A stretch of 25,234 nt of DNA from positions 1-25,234 of the forward strand of contig JAFZQK010000072.1 of NCBI GenBank assembly GCA_017620455.1, given 5' to 3'. The notes beneath the pieces were generated by a model. That model saw nothing but the letters and a program-made list of their open reading frames with translations. It was not told the DNA's origin and ran no database searches. Shown piece by piece: positions 2,774-14,171 of this stretch. The stretch is from Clostridia bacterium. GTDB lineage: Bacteria > Bacillota_A > Clostridia > Christensenellales > Aristaeellaceae. Position 1 is the stretch's first letter; every line of letters begins with the position of its first letter. The position numbers and the translations under genes are program-made.

Positions 2774-3295
2774 TTAAAATACGTCTTCCAGCTTCTCACG
2801 ATTAATTGCATTCAGCGGAATCACGTTTTCTTGTCCCTCTGAAACAATAAGCAGTTCCGCACCTTCCAGGATCGTTTCGTCTTTTCCTTTGAAGAAGAAT
2901 AACAGATCAAAATTATTCTGTTCTTCGGCGATTGTGGGGAACCCGCCGCCTTCCGGCTTGATCAGGGTATGAAACATGATGGAGGCGCCTTCGACTGTCT
3001 CCCCATCGGCAAGGCGTATGAGCAGCTCAGCGTATGCCGTATCGTCCAGAATGGCTTTCGATATGGTTCCATCCGCCGGCACAAAGCGTACCATGGCGAA
3101 CAGTCCGTCTGTCCGCAGATTCGGAATATTGATATCCTTTGAATCCGTCGTCAGCCAGACCACTTTCAGCGTGTACCCACGCCAACTGACATTCTCCGTT
3201 ACGGATTCTTCCGGAGTTTCCCCTGCAAGGGCAGGCAAAGCAGCCATGATAATGCACAGTGCCATCAGCAGCGAAGCAAGTATAACCTTTTTCAT
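2774..3295 (-). CDS. Secreted protein of unknown function, 173 aa, lying inside the pur cluster
   Basis: I do not recognise a family. Residues 1-24 form a clear Sec signal peptide: MKK, a long hydrophobic stretch, then ALPALA with likely cleavage before GETP. There is no convincing lipobox; the Cys at residue 14 lies inside the hydrophobic core. The mature part (about 149 residues) alternates hydrophobic and polar residues as in a beta-sandwich and has no cysteine, repeat or sorting signal. An AAAGGAGG site lies 8 nt before ATG 3295. By eye the gene is much richer in A+T than the purine genes on both sides, which suggests later insertion. Its place between purH and purD gives no functional clue. 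An extracytoplasmic product in a cytoplasmic pathway cluster is odd. Confidence 0.75.
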   Translation of the reverse strand: MKKVILASLLMALCIIMAALPALAGETPEESVTENVSWRGYTLKVVWLTTDSKDINIPNLRTDGLFAMVRFVPADGTISKAILDDTAYAELLIRLADGETVEGASIMFHTLIKPEGGGFPTIAEEQNNFDLLFFFKGKDETILEGAELLIVSEGQENVIPLNAINREKLEDVF

Positions 3296-3442: not shown

Positions 3443-4627
3443 TTAATGATGGAACAATCTCATCCCCGTGAAGGCCATGGCCATGCCGAAGCGGTCGCAG
3501 GTTTCGATGACCTGATCGTCCCGGATGGAGCCGCCGGGCTGGGCCACGTAGGAGACGCCGGAGCGGCGGGCGCGCTCGATATTATCGCCGAAGGGGAAGA
3601 AGGCGTCGCTGCCCAGGGACACGCCGGTGATCTTGTCCAGATAGGCGCGCTTTTCTTCCCGGGTGAAGGGAGCGGGTTTTTCAGTGAAATACTGCTGCCA
3701 CTTGCCCTCGCCCAGCACGTCCTCGTCCTGATCGGAGAGGTACACGTCGATGGTATTGTCCCGGTCGGCGCGGCCCAGGGTGGGCAGGAAGGGCAGGCTC
3801 AGCACTTTTTCGCTCTGGCGCAGGTGCCATTTATCGGCCTTGTCGCCCGCCAGGCGGGTGCAGTGGATGCGGCTCTGCTGGCCGGCGCCCACGCCGATGG
3901 CCTGGCCGTCGTAAGCGTAGCAGACGGAGTTGGACTGGGTGTATTTGAGGGTGATCAGGCTGATGATCAGATCCCGCACGGCCTCGGGGGGCAGATTCTT
4001 ATTGGCGGTGGGGATGTTTTTCAGCAGGCCTTCGTTGATTTCAAAATTGTTCCGGCCCTGCTGGAAGGTGACGCCGAACACATCCTTGGTTTCGATGGGA
4101 TCGGGCACGTAGCTTTCGTCGATCTTGACGATGTTGTAATTGCCCTTGCGCTTGGTTTTGAGGATCTCCAGGGCTTCGTCGGTGTAGCCCGGGGCGATGA
4201 TGCCGTCGGAAACCTCGCGCTTGATGATACGGGCGGTGGTTTCGTCGCACACGTCGGAAAGGGCGATCCAGTCACCGAAGGAGCTCATGCGGTCGGTGCC
4301 CCGGGCGCGGGCGTAGGCGCAGGCCAGGGGGGAATCGTCCAGGCCGGGGATGTCGTCCACGAAGCAGGCCTTTTTCAGCGGATCGCTGAGCTTCAGGCCC
4401 ACGGCGGCGCAGGTGGGGGACACGTGCTTGAAGGAGGCGGCGGCGGGGAGGCCCAGGGCGGCCTTCAATTCCTTCACCAGCTGCCAGGAGTTCAGCGCGT
4501 CCAGGAAATTGATGTAGCCGGGACGGCCGGAAAGGATCTCAAAGGGCAGATCGGCGCCGTTCTTCATGTATACCTTGGCGGGCTTCTGGTTGGGGTTGCA
4601 GCCGTATTTCAGTTCAAATTCCTTCAT
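3443..4627 (-). CDS. purH: AICAR transformylase, stand-alone (PurH C-terminal domain only)
   Basis: This enzyme formylates AICAR to FAICAR with 10-formyl-THF, the ninth step of IMP synthesis. At 394 residues it corresponds only to the transformylase half of bifunctional PurH (about 510-590 residues). The N-terminal MGS-like cyclohydrolase domain is absent, and the protein starts directly with MKEFELKYGCNPNQKPAKVYM. The catalytic Lys-His pair is present in SFKHVSPTCAAVG, and the substrate-binding block LKYTQSNSVCYAYDGQAIGVGAGQQSRIHC is intact. The missing cyclohydrolase step is supplied by the neighbouring PurO-type gene 15 nt upstream. This is a natural short form, not a truncation: start, ribosome site (GAGG) and spacing are all normal. 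Confidence 0.95.
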   Translation of the reverse strand: MKEFELKYGCNPNQKPAKVYMKNGADLPFEILSGRPGYINFLDALNSWQLVKELKAALGLPAAASFKHVSPTCAAVGLKLSDPLKKACFVDDIPGLDDSPLACAYARARGTDRMSSFGDWIALSDVCDETTARIIKREVSDGIIAPGYTDEALEILKTKRKGNYNIVKIDESYVPDPIETKDVFGVTFQQGRNNFEINEGLLKNIPTANKNLPPEAVRDLIISLITLKYTQSNSVCYAYDGQAIGVGAGQQSRIHCTRLAGDKADKWHLRQSEKVLSLPFLPTLGRADRDNTIDVYLSDQDEDVLGEGKWQQYFTEKPAPFTREEKRAYLDKITGVSLGSDAFFPFGDNIERARRSGVSYVAQPGGSIRDDQVIETCDRFGMAMAFTGMRLFHH

Positions 4628-4642
4628 GGCCGGTGTTCCTCC

Positions 4643-5350
4643 TTACTGATGCTTGTTGACGATGCGGGTGTCGGCCTTGCCGGTTTCCAGGTCCACAAAG
4701 CGGACGAACAGGGAAATCCTGTTGCTTTCGTTGAGGCTGCCCCAGACGGTATCGGTGAGCGCGTCGATATCGTCCATCAGCTCCACCTGCTCGGGCTCGC
4801 CCTCGAAGGAGGGGAGGGGATTGCCGTCGCCCACGTAGGTGTGGATGAAGTGGCCCAGGCCCGGCACGGGGGCCAGATCGAAGGTGAAGCGGTTGCATTT
4901 GGTGCCCTGGCCGTCGGCGCATTTCAGGATGCTGAGCTGATACCAGTAAACCTTGTCGAAATGCAGCAGCGCGCTGATCCGGGGGGTATAATTGGGCTTG
5001 TCCGGCTCAAAGCCCCGGGTGCGCAGGGCGTTTTCAAAGGAATCGCCGTTTTTGAGGAAATCCCGCACGGTATCGGTCTGATCGCCGTTGGTGACGATCA
5101 GGGCGCGCTTCACGGAGCGGACCGGGGCGTAGATGATGAGGGAGGGATCCTCCACCTTGCTTTCGTCGTAGGGATAGATCATCACGTCGTCCCCCTCGGC
5201 GCGGAAAACGCGGTTGCGGCTGTTTTCGCTGCGGCCCATGATGAAATAGACGGCCGCGGCCTTTTTGCCGTCCGGCGTGAGCCCAGCGATGATGCCCCGG
5301 CCGGGGTAGGCGTTGGAGGAAAGAAGAGAAGCGAGGGACTGCTTGTTCAT
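4643..5350 (-). CDS. purO: IMP cyclohydrolase, PurO type
   Basis: The 235-residue protein matches the IMP_cyclohyd (PurO-like) family, first known from archaea, which closes the ring of FAICAR to make IMP, the last step of the pathway. Supporting sequence includes the start region NAYPGRGIIAGLTPDGKKAAAVYFIMGRSENSRNRVF, typical of this Ntn-hydrolase-like fold, the YPYDESKVEDPSLIIYAPVR block, and VTNGDQTDTV. It bears no resemblance to the MGS-like cyclohydrolase domain of ordinary PurH. AAGGAGG precedes ATG 5350. The gene lies 36 nt after purN and 15 nt before the transformylase-only purH, which explains why the latter can lack its cyclohydrolase half. The symbol is given by family; the activity has not been tested here. 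Confidence 0.9.
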   Translation of the reverse strand: MNKQSLASLLSSNAYPGRGIIAGLTPDGKKAAAVYFIMGRSENSRNRVFRAEGDDVMIYPYDESKVEDPSLIIYAPVRSVKRALIVTNGDQTDTVRDFLKNGDSFENALRTRGFEPDKPNYTPRISALLHFDKVYWYQLSILKCADGQGTKCNRFTFDLAPVPGLGHFIHTYVGDGNPLPSFEGEPEQVELMDDIDALTDTVWGSLNESNRISLFVRFVDLETGKADTRIVNKHQ

Positions 5351-9860: not shown

Positions 9861-9931
9861 CAGGAATAGACGAATGGCCGCTTTTCCGCCCGGATCTTCC
9901 ATTTCCTGCGGTTTTCCGCTTAGGATTTCCA

Positions 9932-9962
9932 GCATATTGCCCATCGGAAGGGAGGCATATTG
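9932..9962 (+). promoter_or_regulatory. Possible sporulation (sigma-G-like) promoter of spoIVB
   Basis: GCATATT (9932-9938) and CATATTG (9956-9962), separated by 17 nt, resemble the -35 and CATACTA-type -10 of forespore sigma-G promoters and lie about 30 nt before the spoIVB start. Sigma-G control of spoIVB is known in Bacillus. No sigma-A promoter was found at this place. The match is partial. Confidence 0.35.
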
Positions 9963-9993
9963 GGAAGGAAGAAAAAACGGGAGGGACCAGCGG

Positions 9994-11235
9994 ATGAGAA
10001 GGAAAATCGGCCGGATGCGGGCCGCCGCGGGGACGGTCACGGCCCTGATGACGGCGTGGATGGTGTTTTCGCCCACCTCCGCGGCGCTCAGGAGCCTGCC
10101 GGCCACCTACCGGCTGGGGGTGGGGCAGACGGCGGACGTGCACCTGGGGGTGGCGGCGCTGAGCAGCCAGGATGAAAGGCTGTCCGCCGCGGGAAGCACC
10201 CTGAGCGCCCGGGCCGAAGGGGAAGCGGAAGTGACGGTGAACCTGTTCGGCCTGTTCCCCGTGGGGCGCATGCGGGTGGACGTGGAAAAGGAGCGCGTGC
10301 TGATGCCAGGCGGCGCGGCGGTGGGCGTCGCGCTGGCCACCCAGGGGGTGCTGGTGGTGGGCGTTTCCGACGTGGCGGGCAGAAGCCCTGCCCAGGCCGC
10401 GGGCCTGCGCCCCGGGGATCTGATCCGCACCGTGGACGGCCAGGCGGTGGACACCAGCGAAGCGCTGACGGCGCTGATCGCCGCGTCCGGCGGGAAGCAG
10501 ATGCAGGTGACATTCCAGCGGGACGGCCGGGAGGGGACCGCGCTGCTCACCCCCGTGCTGGACGGCGCGGCGGGAAAGTACCGCATGGGCGCCTGGGTGC
10601 GGGACAGCACCGCGGGGGTGGGTACTCTGAGCTATTATGACCCGGCCAGCGGCGTGTACGGCGCCCTGGGCCACGCCATCAACGACGCGGACACGGGCAG
10701 GCTGCTGCCGGTGCGGGAAGGGGCGCTGCTGGAGGCGGACATCGTGGACGTGAAAAAGGGCCTGCGGGGCGCGCCGGGAGAGCTGCGGGGGGATTTCCTC
10801 AAGCGCCGGGTGATCCTGGGGAACATTGAGGAAAACACCGTGCTGGGGATCTACGGCAGGCTGGACGCGCCCTACGTGAACCACCTGTACCCGGAGGGCC
10901 TGCCCATCGGATATCAGGAAACGGTGCGCAGGGGACCGGCGGAGATCCTTTCCACCCTGGACGGCACGGGGGTCAAAAGATACAGCGTGGAGATCGAACA
11001 GGTGACCCGGCAGCTTTCCCCCGGGCAGAAGAGCATGGTGCTGCGGGTGACGGACCCGGCCCTGCTGGAAAAGACCGGGGGCATCGTGCAGGGCATGTCC
11101 GGCAGCCCCATCATCCAGAACGGGCGTATCATCGGGGCGGTGACCCACGTGTTCGTGGACGACCCCACCCACGGCTACGGCCTGTTCATCGAATGGATGC
11201 TGGAAACGGCGGAATTGATCGATCAGGCCGCCTGA
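9994..11235 (+). CDS. spoIVB: SpoIVB sporulation signalling protease (S55 family)
   Basis: SpoIVB is made in the forespore, crosses its inner membrane and signals for processing of pro-sigma-K in the mother cell. ATG 9994 has GGGAGGGA at about 7 nt and gives 413 residues (B. subtilis about 425); longer openings to 9874 add unrelated sequence. An N-terminal hydrophobic anchor lies at about residues 10-32. A PDZ domain at about 115-180 includes the ligand loop SPAQAAGLRPGDLIRTVDG. The S55 peptidase domain carries His227 (ALGHAI), Asp354 and Ser369 (GIVQGMSGSPIIQNG), with spacing equal to the known B. subtilis triad, then GAVTHVFVDDPTHGYG. It is the best evidence that the host makes spores. In Bacillus it lies beside spo0A; here it lies between the pur cluster and nagA. 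Confidence 0.96.
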   Translation: MRRKIGRMRAAAGTVTALMTAWMVFSPTSAALRSLPATYRLGVGQTADVHLGVAALSSQDERLSAAGSTLSARAEGEAEVTVNLFGLFPVGRMRVDVEKERVLMPGGAAVGVALATQGVLVVGVSDVAGRSPAQAAGLRPGDLIRTVDGQAVDTSEALTALIAASGGKQMQVTFQRDGREGTALLTPVLDGAAGKYRMGAWVRDSTAGVGTLSYYDPASGVYGALGHAINDADTGRLLPVREGALLEADIVDVKKGLRGAPGELRGDFLKRRVILGNIEENTVLGIYGRLDAPYVNHLYPEGLPIGYQETVRRGPAEILSTLDGTGVKRYSVEIEQVTRQLSPGQKSMVLRVTDPALLEKTGGIVQGMSGSPIIQNGRIIGAVTHVFVDDPTHGYGLFIEWMLETAELIDQAA

Positions 11236-11236
11236 T

Positions 11237-11265
11237 TTGACAGGACGGGCGGAAGAAAATATAAT
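11237..11265 (+). promoter_or_regulatory. Perfect consensus sigma-A promoter at the start of a gene-free stretch
   Basis: TTGACA (11237-11242), a 17-nt spacer (11243-11259) and TATAAT (11260-11265) match the vegetative consensus without a mismatch. It begins 1 nt after the spoIVB stop. Transcription should start near 11272, leaving about 437 nt before the nagA ATG. It could drive nagA through a long leader, a separate non-coding RNA, or both. Confidence 0.85.
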
Positions 11266-11271
11266 GAAACC

Positions 11272-11708
11272 GTAACTGCCCAGTCGCAGAAAAAACGCTT
11301 TCAAGCACTTACGAAGCAGGGGCCTCCGCGGCCCCTGAACCCCGCGGCAAGGGATTTCATCCCTTGCATTCCATTTGACAAAACAGCGCCGTTGGGAATA
11401 CCGACAGACTTCGCCTGCCGCACTGGGTTTACGAAATTTTGGAAAGTTTCTGGCCCCAGGAAACCCGGAAAAATCCCAGGGGGGGGGAAAGCGAGCTTTC
11501 CTCTGGGGTTTTTCCGGGTTTTCCCCGGATGCTTTGCATCCGGGCGGGCCGCTTTCAGCGGCCGGGCCAGAAACTATATGCCGCCAAGTTTTCCAGAATG
11601 GAGTCCAGGGGCCGAAGGCCCTTTGTTCAGGGGTCAGGGGGCTGAAGAAGCCCCCTGGCATGAAACCAATGAAAAACGGCCTCGCGGGCCGGAAAGGACG
11701 AAAGACGC
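11272..11708 (+). other. Gene-free, hairpin-rich stretch: structured nagA leader, ncRNA or repeat cluster
   Basis: No convincing gene is present. Short open frames cross it but none has a ribosome site, a recognisable protein or conserved-looking composition. Hairpins seen in order are: CAGGGGCC/GGCCCCTG (11317-11337, 8 bp), GCAAGGGAT/ATCCCTTGC (11347-11367, 9 bp, TTC loop), the four-way fold at 11445-11575, AGGGGCC/GGCCCTT with GAA loop (11607-11623), and CAGGGGGCT/AGCCCCCTG with GAAGA loop (11635-11657). No hairpin is followed by a clear T-tract, so no terminator separates the promoter from nagA. An AAAGGA ribosome site for nagA sits at 11693-11698. Confidence 0.7.
11445..11575 (+). repeat. 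131-nt four-way-junction-like nested inverted repeat
   Basis: A perfect 12-bp outer stem pairs 11445-11456 with 11564-11575 and encloses three hairpins. Branch A pairs 11461-11479 with 11503-11521 (19 bp, one G-U) and is capped by GGAAAG/CTTTCC (11486-11491 with 11496-11501). Branch B pairs 11524-11532 with 11536-11544 (9 bp, TTT loop). Branch C pairs 11547-11553 with 11557-11563 (7 bp, TTC loop). The branches are separated by only 2-4 unpaired bases, and branch C abuts the outer stem directly, so nearly every base is paired. This is a cloverleaf-like RNA or a cruciform-prone DNA element. It is not a tRNA: arm lengths and loops do not fit. Confidence 0.85.
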
Positions 11709-12854
11709 ATGCGTGCCATCGTGAACGGGCGGCTGCTGCTGCCGGAAGGGGAAAAAGCGGACGCGGCGCTGCTGTTTGACGAAAAGATCCTCGCCGTCAC
11801 CCGGGAGGAGATCCCGGCGGGGACGGAGGTCATCGACGCCGGGGGCTGCTTCGTGTCGCCCGGGCTCATCGACACCCACATCCACGGCTGCGCCGGAGCG
11901 GACGCCTCCGACGCGGACGCAGAGGGGCTGAAAGCAATGGCCGGGGCGCTGCTGAAAAACGGCGTCACCGGCTTTCTGCCCACCACCATGACCGTGGCCT
12001 GGGAAACGCTGGAAGCCGTTTTCCGCCAGGTACGGCAGCTGATGCCGGAGAGCCTCCGGCCGGAGTTTCCCGGCGCGGAGATCCTGGGCTGCCACGCGGA
12101 GGGGCCCTTCATCAACCCGGAAAAGAAAGGCGCCCAGGCGGAGGAAAACATCCTGCCGCCGGACGCGGAAAAGATCCTGCCTTTTGCGGATGTGATCCGC
12201 CTGATCACCTTCGCGCCCGAAATGCCGGGAGCGGCGTGGTTCATGAAATCGATCCGGAAAAAAACGAAAATCGGGCTGTCCATCGGGCACACCGCCGCCA
12301 CCTATGAGCAGGCCATGGATGCGGTAAACATGGGCGCGGGGCGGTTCACCCATCTGTTCAACGCCATGCCGCCGGTGCACCACCGTTTCCCCGGGGCCGC
12401 GGCCGCAGCGCTTTGCAGCGGCGCGTACGCGGAGCTGATCGCCGACGGCATCCACGTGCACCCGGCCCTGTTTCCCCTGCTGTACCGCCTGAAGGGGGAA
12501 AAGCTGGTGCTGATCACCGATTCCCTGCGGGCCGAGGGGATGCCCGACGGGGAATACACCCTGGGCGGGCAGCGGTTCACCCTGCGGGGGCGGGAATGCC
12601 GCCTGGAAAGCGGCGTCATCGCCGGCAGCGTGCTGCGGCTCAACGAGGCGGTGCTTTTGCTGCGGGACCATGCCGGCATCCCCCTGCACGCCGCCGTCCG
12701 GGCCGCGTCCCTGAGCGCCGCGGAATCCGCGGGCCTTTCGGAAACGAAGGGCTCCCTGACCCCGGGCAAGGACGCGGACATCGTGCTCATGGACGAAAAC
12801 TGCCGGGTGAAGCGCACTATCGTCCGGGGCGTGACAAAATACACCGATATATGA
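11709..12854 (+). CDS. nagA: N-acetylglucosamine-6-phosphate deacetylase
   Basis: NagA removes acetate from GlcNAc-6-phosphate, feeding amino sugars from cell wall or chitin into glycolysis or wall recycling. The 381 residues form the amidohydrolase TIM barrel with a beta-sandwich built from both ends. Metal and catalytic residues are in place: His57 and His59 (DTHIHG), Glu131 (HAEGPF), His194 (GHTAAT), His215 (THLFNAM) and Asp271 (ITDS). The C-terminal SLTPGKDADIVLMD segment is typical. AAAGGA lies about 10 nt before ATG 11709. No nagB or sugar transporter is adjacent; the gene stands alone between the structured stretch and a terminator, so its regulation probably lies in the long leader. 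Confidence 0.95.
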   Translation: MRAIVNGRLLLPEGEKADAALLFDEKILAVTREEIPAGTEVIDAGGCFVSPGLIDTHIHGCAGADASDADAEGLKAMAGALLKNGVTGFLPTTMTVAWETLEAVFRQVRQLMPESLRPEFPGAEILGCHAEGPFINPEKKGAQAEENILPPDAEKILPFADVIRLITFAPEMPGAAWFMKSIRKKTKIGLSIGHTAATYEQAMDAVNMGAGRFTHLFNAMPPVHHRFPGAAAAALCSGAYAELIADGIHVHPALFPLLYRLKGEKLVLITDSLRAEGMPDGEYTLGGQRFTLRGRECRLESGVIAGSVLRLNEAVLLLRDHAGIPLHAAVRAASLSAAESAGLSETKGSLTPGKDADIVLMDENCRVKRTIVRGVTKYTDI

Positions 12855-12886
12855 AAAAACCGGGGCCGCGGAAGCCCCGGTTTTTT
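12854..12886. terminator. Bidirectional intrinsic terminator between nagA and mtaB
   Basis: A perfect 13-bp stem (12854-12866 with 12874-12886) has a 7-nt loop. The stem starts with six A and ends with six T, so it works as a GC-rich hairpin plus T-tract on both strands. It begins at the last base of the nagA stop and ends 1 nt from the mtaB stop on the other strand, serving both converging genes. Confidence 0.93.
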
Positions 12887-12887
12887 G

Positions 12888-14171
12888 CTATTCCATGATG
12901 TTCCCGGTCAGGCCGTCTTCGGCGAGGCCGGCGACGGTCACGCGGTACATATTTCCCGGCGCGCCGCCGGAAAAGACGCAGGGGATGTATTCGGCGGTGT
13001 AGCCCCGGGTGAGGCCGTTTTCGTCCGTCTCCTCGGAGAGCACCTCCGCCGTGCGGCCGATCCAGCCCCGGCGGTAGGCAAGCGTCAGCTTGTTCCCCAC
13101 GGCGATGAGGCGGCGGGCCCGGTCCTCTCGGAGCGCCCGGGGCACCTGATCCGGCATGGCCGCGGCGGGCGTGCCCTGGCGGGCGGAATAGGGGAACACG
13201 TGCATCCGGGCAAAGCCGATCTCCCGGCAGAAGGAAACGGTTTCCTCAAATTCGGCCTCCGTTTCTCCGGGAAAGCCGCAGATCACGTCGGTGGTCAGGG
13301 CGCAGCCGGGGAAGGCGGCGCGAAGGATCTGGGCCGAGCGGCGGAATTCCTCCGCGGTGTAGCGCCGGCGCATGCGCCGGAGGACCGGATCGCTGCCGGA
13401 CTGCAGCGCCAGGTGGAACTGGGGGCAGACCTTTCCGATCCCGGCGAGGCCATCGGCAAATTCCTCCGTCACGATCACCGGCTCCAGGCTGCCCAGGCGG
13501 ATGCGGCGCACCCCGCTTTGATCGCAGGCGCGCACGGCGTCCAGCAGGGTTTCGCCCTGCAGGTCCCGGCCGTAGCTGGTCAGGTGGATGCCGGTGAGCA
13601 CCAGCTCGGAAAACCCGGCGCGGCTCAGGCGCGCGGCTTCGGCGGCGATGTCCTCAGGCGGGCGGGAGCGGATGCCCCCCCGGACGTAGGGGATGATGCA
13701 GTAGGCGCAGTACCGGTCGCACCCCTCCTGGATCTTGAGCACCGCCCGGGTATGGCCCTCGTGGCTGGAAATGCACAGCGGCTCGTAGGGCACGCGGAGG
13801 ATATTTTCCACCGCCGCCACCCGTTCGTTTTTTTCCACGGCTTCTTCCAGCAGCGTCACCACCTCGCTTCTGCGGGCGTTGCCGATCACCAGCCGGGCGC
13901 CGGTGGCCAGCAGCTTTTCCCCGTCCCGCTGGGCCAGGCAACCGGCGATCACCACCTGGGCGGCGGGATTGCGGCGCAGGGCGCGGCGCACGGCGTTCAG
14001 GCTTTTCTTATCGCCCGTGCCGGTGACGGTGCAGGTGTTGACCACGTATACGTCGGCCGTCTGAGAAAAATCCCGGATCTCATAGCCGGCTTTTTCAAAT
14101 AATTCCAGCATCGCCTGGGAATCATACTGATTGACCTTGCAGCCCAGGGTGTGAAAAGCCACGGAAGGCAT
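12888..14171 (-). CDS. mtaB: tRNA (t6A37) methylthiotransferase MtaB
   Basis: MtaB is a radical-SAM enzyme that adds a methylthio group to t6A at position 37 of ANN-decoding tRNAs. The 427 residues show the three-domain plan: an N-terminal UPF0004 domain with Cys11 (LGCKVNQ), Cys47 (NTCTVT) and Cys78 (AGCLAQ) for one 4Fe-4S cluster; the radical-SAM core with Cys151, Cys155 and Cys158 (EGCDRYCAYCIIPYVRG); and a C-terminal TRAM-like domain from about residue 365. The HTLGCKVNQYDS start and LTGIHLTSYGRD favour MtaB over MiaB or RimO. GAAGGAG precedes ATG 14171. It lies 25 nt after rsmE and is probably co-transcribed with it, so the pair is a small RNA-modification operon. Confidence 0.93.
   Translation of the reverse strand: MPSVAFHTLGCKVNQYDSQAMLELFEKAGYEIRDFSQTADVYVVNTCTVTGTGDKKSLNAVRRALRRNPAAQVVIAGCLAQRDGEKLLATGARLVIGNARRSEVVTLLEEAVEKNERVAAVENILRVPYEPLCISSHEGHTRAVLKIQEGCDRYCAYCIIPYVRGGIRSRPPEDIAAEAARLSRAGFSELVLTGIHLTSYGRDLQGETLLDAVRACDQSGVRRIRLGSLEPVIVTEEFADGLAGIGKVCPQFHLALQSGSDPVLRRMRRRYTAEEFRRSAQILRAAFPGCALTTDVICGFPGETEAEFEETVSFCREIGFARMHVFPYSARQGTPAAAMPDQVPRALREDRARRLIAVGNKLTLAYRRGWIGRTAEVLSEETDENGLTRGYTAEYIPCVFSGGAPGNMYRVTVAGLAEDGLTGNIME

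Follow-up and report, generated by a model that had tools for sequence, protein, structure and literature searches.

What does a strong promoter serve when it is followed by several hundred nucleotides of hairpins and only then by a gene? The question is posed by the gap between spoIVB and nagA in the window, that is, the whole 25,234-nt stretch of DNA analysed here. A sequence-only reading had offered two answers, an undescribed structured leader in control of amino-sugar catabolism, or else a separate non-coding RNA made from this promoter; it kept as a serious alternative a cluster of dispersed palindromic repeats that lies behind a promoter by chance. It is this last possibility that matches the data: the structure recurs at unrelated loci, and the stretch is very probably one copy of an interspersed, MITE-like repeat that is specific to its lineage and is situated here in the nagA leader.

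The gap between spoIVB and nagA

The gap is bounded by the following features.

9874..11235, + strand: spoIVB (SpoIVB peptidase; TIGR02860, 426 bits against a cut-off of 305)
11237..11265, + strand: consensus sigma-A-type promoter, TTGACA-17-TATAAT, outside the repeat and the sole evident nagA promoter
11709..12854, + strand: nagA, N-acetylglucosamine-6-phosphate deacetylase (TIGR00221, 313.8 bits against a cut-off of 225.65)

As a description, the sequence-only reading holds in its particulars. The perfect promoter it saw just after spoIVB is there, with the spoIVB stop directly 5' (TTGACA at 11237-11242, a 17-nt spacer, TATAAT at 11260-11265; 12/12 matches). This is the sole promoter-like match on either strand between 10000 and 13000, where shuffles give a mean of 0.4 matches at the looser 9/12 threshold; the same scan located no second promoter between the repeat element and nagA. 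Perfect promoters are in themselves unexceptional: 400 kb of tiles from a related genome (G153) hold 11 of them at spacings of 16-18. The 437 nt before nagA are gene-free as claimed, containing only mechanical ORFs (for example 11375-11779 and 11392-11724, with TTG starts), none of them gene-supported. The heavy folding is equally real: 11272-11708 folds at -222.1 kcal/mol, as against -166.0 ± 6.6 for its shuffles (z -8.46), and 0 of 100 shuffles equal it. As to the T-tract terminator that the reading found missing, terminator-like sites are no commoner in 10000-13000 than chance would give (4 versus 3.1 ± 1.6 expected); two of these sites, at 11347 and 11479, are hairpins of the + strand within the element itself. 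A known Rfam RNA was considered and rejected: no family reaches its curated gathering score in the window (0 matches; best sub-threshold score 34.9 of 66 bits), and 20 loci of the repeat gave only an unrelated Moco riboswitch.

Some features of the neighbourhood may be recorded here. Six of the ten closest genomes have purE and spoIVB in divergent arrangement (L048-L052 and L055; tblastn). Within the pur cluster of the window (3443-5350, - strand), a PurO-like IMP cyclohydrolase (PF07826) lies next to a separate AICARFT/IMPCHase-type protein, which matches only the later part of the PF01808 profile (76-311); a fused single PurH is the arrangement in most bacteria. A 173-aa protein adjoining purD (2774-3295, - strand) has no Pfam match at E 1e-3.

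The repeat family and its fold

A SpoIVB search of the genome_contigs collection returned 27 loci, the closest of them in a sheep-rumen Clostridia MAG (L001, 64% identity). The comparison set consisted of 200 genomes sampled from the family of this MAG and of the 29-genome genus that contains it; the genus was chosen as nearest by SpoIVB (the protein of the window shares 61-68% identity with its ten closest counterparts), and the window may lie outside it. Searched as DNA, 11272-11708 has matches (E ≤ 0.001) in all 10 genus genomes tested, from at least 4 to at least 63 per genome, with no more than 40 candidates scored in each, a ceiling reached in 8 of the 10; the best match, in G153, extends over 342 nt (window 11316-11657) at 75% identity. 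The gap is therefore mostly dispersed repeat. Model R1, a covariance model of the repeat's core, matches 28 of the 29 genus genomes, at unrelated loci, and 19 of the 200 family genomes under stricter filters. Its matches are unevenly distributed, from 2 in G001, 4 in G217 and 5 in G214 to more than 100 in others; these figures are not copy numbers, since one near-palindromic copy can register a second time as a weaker antisense match and scoring stopped at 113 candidates per genome. Among the R1 matches listed for G179, at least 37 distinct places are represented.

A plasmid or phage element was rejected: the repeat matched none of 72,556 plasmid records and none of 50,697 phage records (E 1e-5). 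The viral_contigs collection contains one exact 19-nt core match, on an IMG/VR contig (L257) with a complete-looking element at about 1800-2300; although filed as viral, this contig may be a host contig. In G001, which has only two core matches, solo two-hairpin modules with no visible core are present between genes at L028, L033, L038 and L043.

The general build of the repeat is a core, made of a closing stem and three arms, followed on either side by spacers and by two inverted modules of two hairpins each; parts are missing or altered in some copies. The copy in the window is laid out as follows.

11312..11661, + strand: dispersed repeat element, recognizable extent (core and modules; DNA match in G153)
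11317..11337, + strand: 5' module, outer hairpin CAGGGGCCTCCGCGGCCCCTG, with a perfect 8-bp stem; the exact hairpin is in 0 of 83 other copies
11347..11367, + strand: 5' module, inner hairpin GCAAGGGATTTCATCCCTTGC; the exact 21-nt hairpin is in 10 of 83 other copies
11445..11575, + strand: three-armed core (inverted repeats; alignment and consensus structure; profile and model R1 matches)
11445-11456 with 11564-11575, + strand: closing stem of the core, TTCTGGCCC...GGGCCAGAA, almost invariant among copies
11461-11521 (long arm), 11524-11544 and 11547-11563, + strand: arms of the core (inverted repeats, consensus structure)
11609..11621, + strand: 3' module, inner hairpin GGGCCGAAGGCCC, present as GGGCCTTCGGCCC letter for letter in 3 of 83 other copies
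11635..11657, + strand: 3' module, outer hairpin CAGGGGGCTGAAGAAGCCCCCTG (CAGGGGGCTTCTTCAGCCCCCTG on the reverse strand); the exact 23-nt hairpin is in 6 of 83 other copies

The repeat covers about 350 nt (approximately 11312-11661), less than the full 437-nt gap, and its outer terminal inverted repeats are unrecognized by eye in this copy. Scans with the profile and the model find a single core in the 25-kb window.

Copies for comparison were taken at 80 loci in four genomes (G153, G179, G138 and G098), picked roughly best first from the DNA-search matches listed; these loci yielded 86 cores scoring more than 70 bits. A profile that excludes the window, being built on copies in other genomes, finds the window core at 107.7 bits (E 1.3e-31); model R1, of which the window is one of 42 sequences, gives it 125.8 bits. 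The hairpins of the modules vary as whole perfect palindromes: among the 84 rows counted (83 other copies and the window), 39 have all four hairpins intact by the rules of the script, and these 39 display 35 distinct four-hairpin combinations.

The core alignment contains 42 sequences, namely the window and the 41 of 75 full-length cores left by thinning at 93% identity; 98.7% of its cells are paired. Changes on both sides have occurred in 13 of 45 pairs. Shuffles give 3.3, with none of 500 reaching the observed value, and slid controls give 1-5; kinship among copies inflates such counts, and the slid control retains that kinship. Because the hairpins show compensatory changes, base pairing is probably maintained, a trait that belongs to the repeat family rather than to nagA. 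The matches and the alignment together establish a repeat dispersed through one MAG-represented Clostridia genus, the nearest by SpoIVB, with its stems kept by compensatory changes. Among non-Watson-Crick cells, G-U outnumbers C-A by 66 to 12; strand-specific selection is only hinted at, because the excess comes mostly from three pairs (without the three most G-U-rich, 19 versus 9, p 0.09).

Association with nagA and with the promoter

One way to understand the locus is as a riboswitch, or other dedicated structured leader, by which nagA would be controlled in response to a sensed amino-sugar phosphate. Location between a strong promoter and nagA, a strong fold and compensatory changes are all in keeping with such a device. 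The relatives of nagA speak against it: they are found in 28 of the 29 genus genomes, and at the 30 nagA-family places in these 28 genomes the core model finds 0 cores in the leader (upstream DNA of 111 nt to 1.5 kb was covered, at least 613 nt for 28 of the 30). Two of the 30 places have a core elsewhere near nagA: at L125 it is downstream, at L121 about 1.26 kb upstream. Nor was a structured leader like that of the window seen by eye within 260 nt upstream of the 30 nagA-family matches (of which L132 is a weaker, partial match and L131 has a shortened upstream region); in these relatives, nagA has a promoter-like box near its start or a preceding gene. With the same structure at many unrelated places, and no Rfam match at the gathering score, a sensor role is without support; the nagA riboswitch was rejected for its lack of association at the 30 places, and the probability left to it is close to nil. 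The literature on nagA leaders held nothing relevant among the matches listed.

The sequence-only reading had itself named an outcome that would tell against a leader: the same hairpins scattered at many unrelated sites, unlinked to nagA and lacking compensatory base changes. Scatter and absence of linkage are indeed what is found; the remaining part does not apply, as 13 of 45 pairs covary.

The linkage was also examined from the side of spoIVB: nagA was not found downstream of the gene, within at most 1.5 kb, at the ten closest spoIVB loci. At L057 (G167), inspection by eye shows two hairpins of the same style directly 3' of spoIVB, with no nagA; the position behind spoIVB may thus have been hit, or kept, more than once.

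The other answer of the sequence-only reading supposes a functional multi-copy non-coding RNA, transcribed as such and owning the promoter. A conserved fold with compensatory changes suits this idea, and the preponderance of G-U over C-A cells would fit an RNA of this strand. The promoter does not travel with the repeat: when only perfect promoters are counted, 0 of 83 other copies have one within 400 nt upstream of the core, on which ground the promoter was rejected as a part of the element and the claim of a separate RNA from it lost its footing. Orientation at tandem sites, given below, is unbiased and tells against the same idea. A functional RNA of this kind is quite improbable.

The copies lie mostly between genes. 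Of the 86 cores, 72 were classified as intergenic, 2 lie inside a predicted gene and 12 are at edges. Among the 72, 48 are between co-directional genes, where read-through is possible, 19 between convergent and 5 between divergent genes; at the tandem sites, 21 point along the genes and 27 against them (p 0.47). The baseline, from tiles of G153 (400 kb, mostly contig starts), is 161 tandem, 26 convergent and 35 divergent gaps. Convergent gaps are accordingly enriched (19 of 72 copies versus 26 of 222 baseline gaps; Fisher p 0.004) and divergent gaps look depleted (p 0.07), in a comparison with gene calls from a home-made caller, copies from four genomes and a baseline from one. The pattern is compatible with insertions tolerated away from promoters. 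From the gene-caller context of the copies and the unsupported ORFs of the gap, we infer that the repeat is non-coding.

Mobility and comparison with known elements

Evidence of movement comes from sites compared between species. One site in G179 (L183) is occupied, and the core is absent from 6 of 6 orthologous stretches in other species, three of them with both flanks. The flanks are 52 nt apart in L259, as against 530 in the occupied form, and 220 nt apart in L260, as against 741; L261 has about 1 kb of other sequence between them. One occupied/empty site is thereby demonstrated, filled at L183 and with both flanks but no core in two related species (L259 and L260); for the site at L187, a single flank was recovered. 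A further intergenic site, shared by G179 and G138 (L177 and L213, flanks about 95% identical), carries the element in opposite orientations, the two elements being 80% identical over 238 nt. Several copies lie at contig ends, as is typical of repeats in draft assemblies.

Some copies have inverted ends, TAACAGYYATGTTSTSAAGG, beyond the modules; 85 matches were found in G179 and 64 in G138 at no more than 2 mismatches (control, 0). If 3 mismatches are allowed and the search is confined to 330 nt from the core, such terminal repeats stand at either end of 20 of the 86 copies, and 9 copies have both. Either end was found in 9 of 22 copies in G179, 7 of 23 in G138, 4 of 20 in G098 and 0 of 21 in G153; both ends were found in 0 of 20 in G098. 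A scan of 110 loci for pairs of ends, identical pairs being dropped, gave 16 pairs of less than 900 nt, all in G179 or G138 and 108-649 nt long (a 17th, of 2686 nt, was omitted as two elements); 14 enclose a core (409-649 nt) and 2 do not. The two ends of a pair usually differ (TGTTCTC versus TGTTGTG). No target-site duplication was found at the 16 pairs, whose ends are not fixed to the base, and by eye the positions of terminal repeats listed in two draft genomes offer no candidate autonomous partner or transposase. Core-less short forms with the same terminal inverted repeats are seen at L269 (1413-1520, 108 nt) and L282 (1295-1520, 226 nt).

A MITE-like repeat lodged in the nagA leader remains the preferred reading. 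Against it stand the presence of terminal repeats in a minority of copies only, the failure to find target duplication or transposase, the single occupied/empty site, and a maintained pairing beyond what a purely passive parasite would require of its RNA. The element would have arrived between the nagA promoter and the start codon by transposition in trans; nagA would then be read through it from the promoter at 11237, giving a leader of about 437 nt with the element in the 5' UTR. If nagA is affected at all, the effect would be passive and of the kind general to such elements in a UTR, through double-strand-specific cleavage, altered mRNA stability or spacing, with no metabolite sensing, and the element may have no measurable effect on nagA.

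A stronger form of the MITE-like reading, not exclusive of it, supposes co-option: the insertion would by now have a measurable hold on nagA expression, for instance by way of how the 437-nt leader is processed or how stable it is. The strong promoter before an intact fold, with no other promoter between element and nagA, lends this some plausibility, and such repeats have precedents in UTRs according to the accessible portions of two reports (PMC10969869, PMC3446304). Set against it, the promoter-element-nagA arrangement occurs in no other genome examined, and the outer ends are unrecognizable in the copy of the window; co-option is thus a tentative proposal, on balance doubtful. In a related proposal, exchangeable hairpin cassettes (whole stems replaced by other perfect palindromes), a fold under RNA-level selection and an element that can be re-placed in opposite orientation at one site would describe a portable module for mRNA processing or stability that was recruited to the nagA leader. 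This we regard as unlikely.

The agent of movement might be sought among the Y1 transposases. REP elements are associated with RAYT transposases, and a REP/BIME-type repeat moved by such a RAYT (Y1) enzyme would, like the present one, be palindromic, intergenic and present in many copies; Y1_Tnp is found in 10 of the 29 genus genomes, including G189 with at least 107 core matches, and weakly in the match-rich G119. Against this, the Y1 transposase was not found in the draft genomes G138, G179, G213 and G034, each with at least 111-112 core matches, and across the 29 genus genomes its presence does not track match number. The element is also far larger than a REP. A RAYT-mobilized REP was rejected on the absence of the enzyme from the four match-rich genomes, and we give it hardly any credence. 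Likeness to REP elements extends to their hairpin-based, extragenic, high-copy character (PMC3733652); they are 20-40 bp long, as against the multi-hairpin element here.

Other known families are closer in kind. The bcr1-bcr18 repeats of the Bacillus cereus group are, like this one, interspersed and intergenic; in the portion of PMC3446304 available, bcr1-3 are called MITE-like and are often in UTRs or within operons, and bcr10 and bcr18 are structurally conserved. The present repeat differs by its lineage, its three-armed core and its exchangeable two-hairpin end modules, a distinction made by description only. The Correia/NEMIS, ERIC and RUP MITEs share with it a non-coding, intergenic nature, inverted ends (recognized here in a minority of copies) and stable transcript folds (excerpts of PMC2229807 and PMC10969869). 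They are given in the former as about 100-200 bp, whereas elements here that have a core between two terminal repeats measure 409-649 nt; no target duplication was found in the repeat here. Some MITEs of these types are processed by RNase III (same excerpts), and there is broader precedent for repeats so processed or tied to mRNA decay (PMC2229807, PMC10969869 and PMC3446304, in the parts seen). Stem-loop families from a survey of 40 genomes, such as Clop-1 of C. perfringens and Clot-1 of C. tetani, are likewise intergenic with a shared predicted fold; their models are 93 and 74 bp in the available text of PMC2267715, and they are set apart from the repeat here by description only. The repeat family was not met among the matches listed in open-licence literature on repeats of Clostridia, the rumen, Faecalibacterium, Ruminococcaceae or Christensenellales. 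Structured, MITE-like interspersed repeats are a known kind; this family, new among them, has a large and modular build.

The transformation of an apparent riboswitch candidate into a repeat family is a caution against taking a strong fold near a promoter for a regulator. At the same time, modular covarying hairpins, together with the difference of orientation at one site, provide a natural system for testing selection on RNA structure in bacterial repeats.

A second repeat motif, GGCTCAATNGTCGCAANTC, is present in 16 of 297 loci (for example L170, L175, L209, L173, L185 and L211); in several copies, by eye, its start falls within the core's third arm or beside a hairpin, as if it were nested into hairpins.
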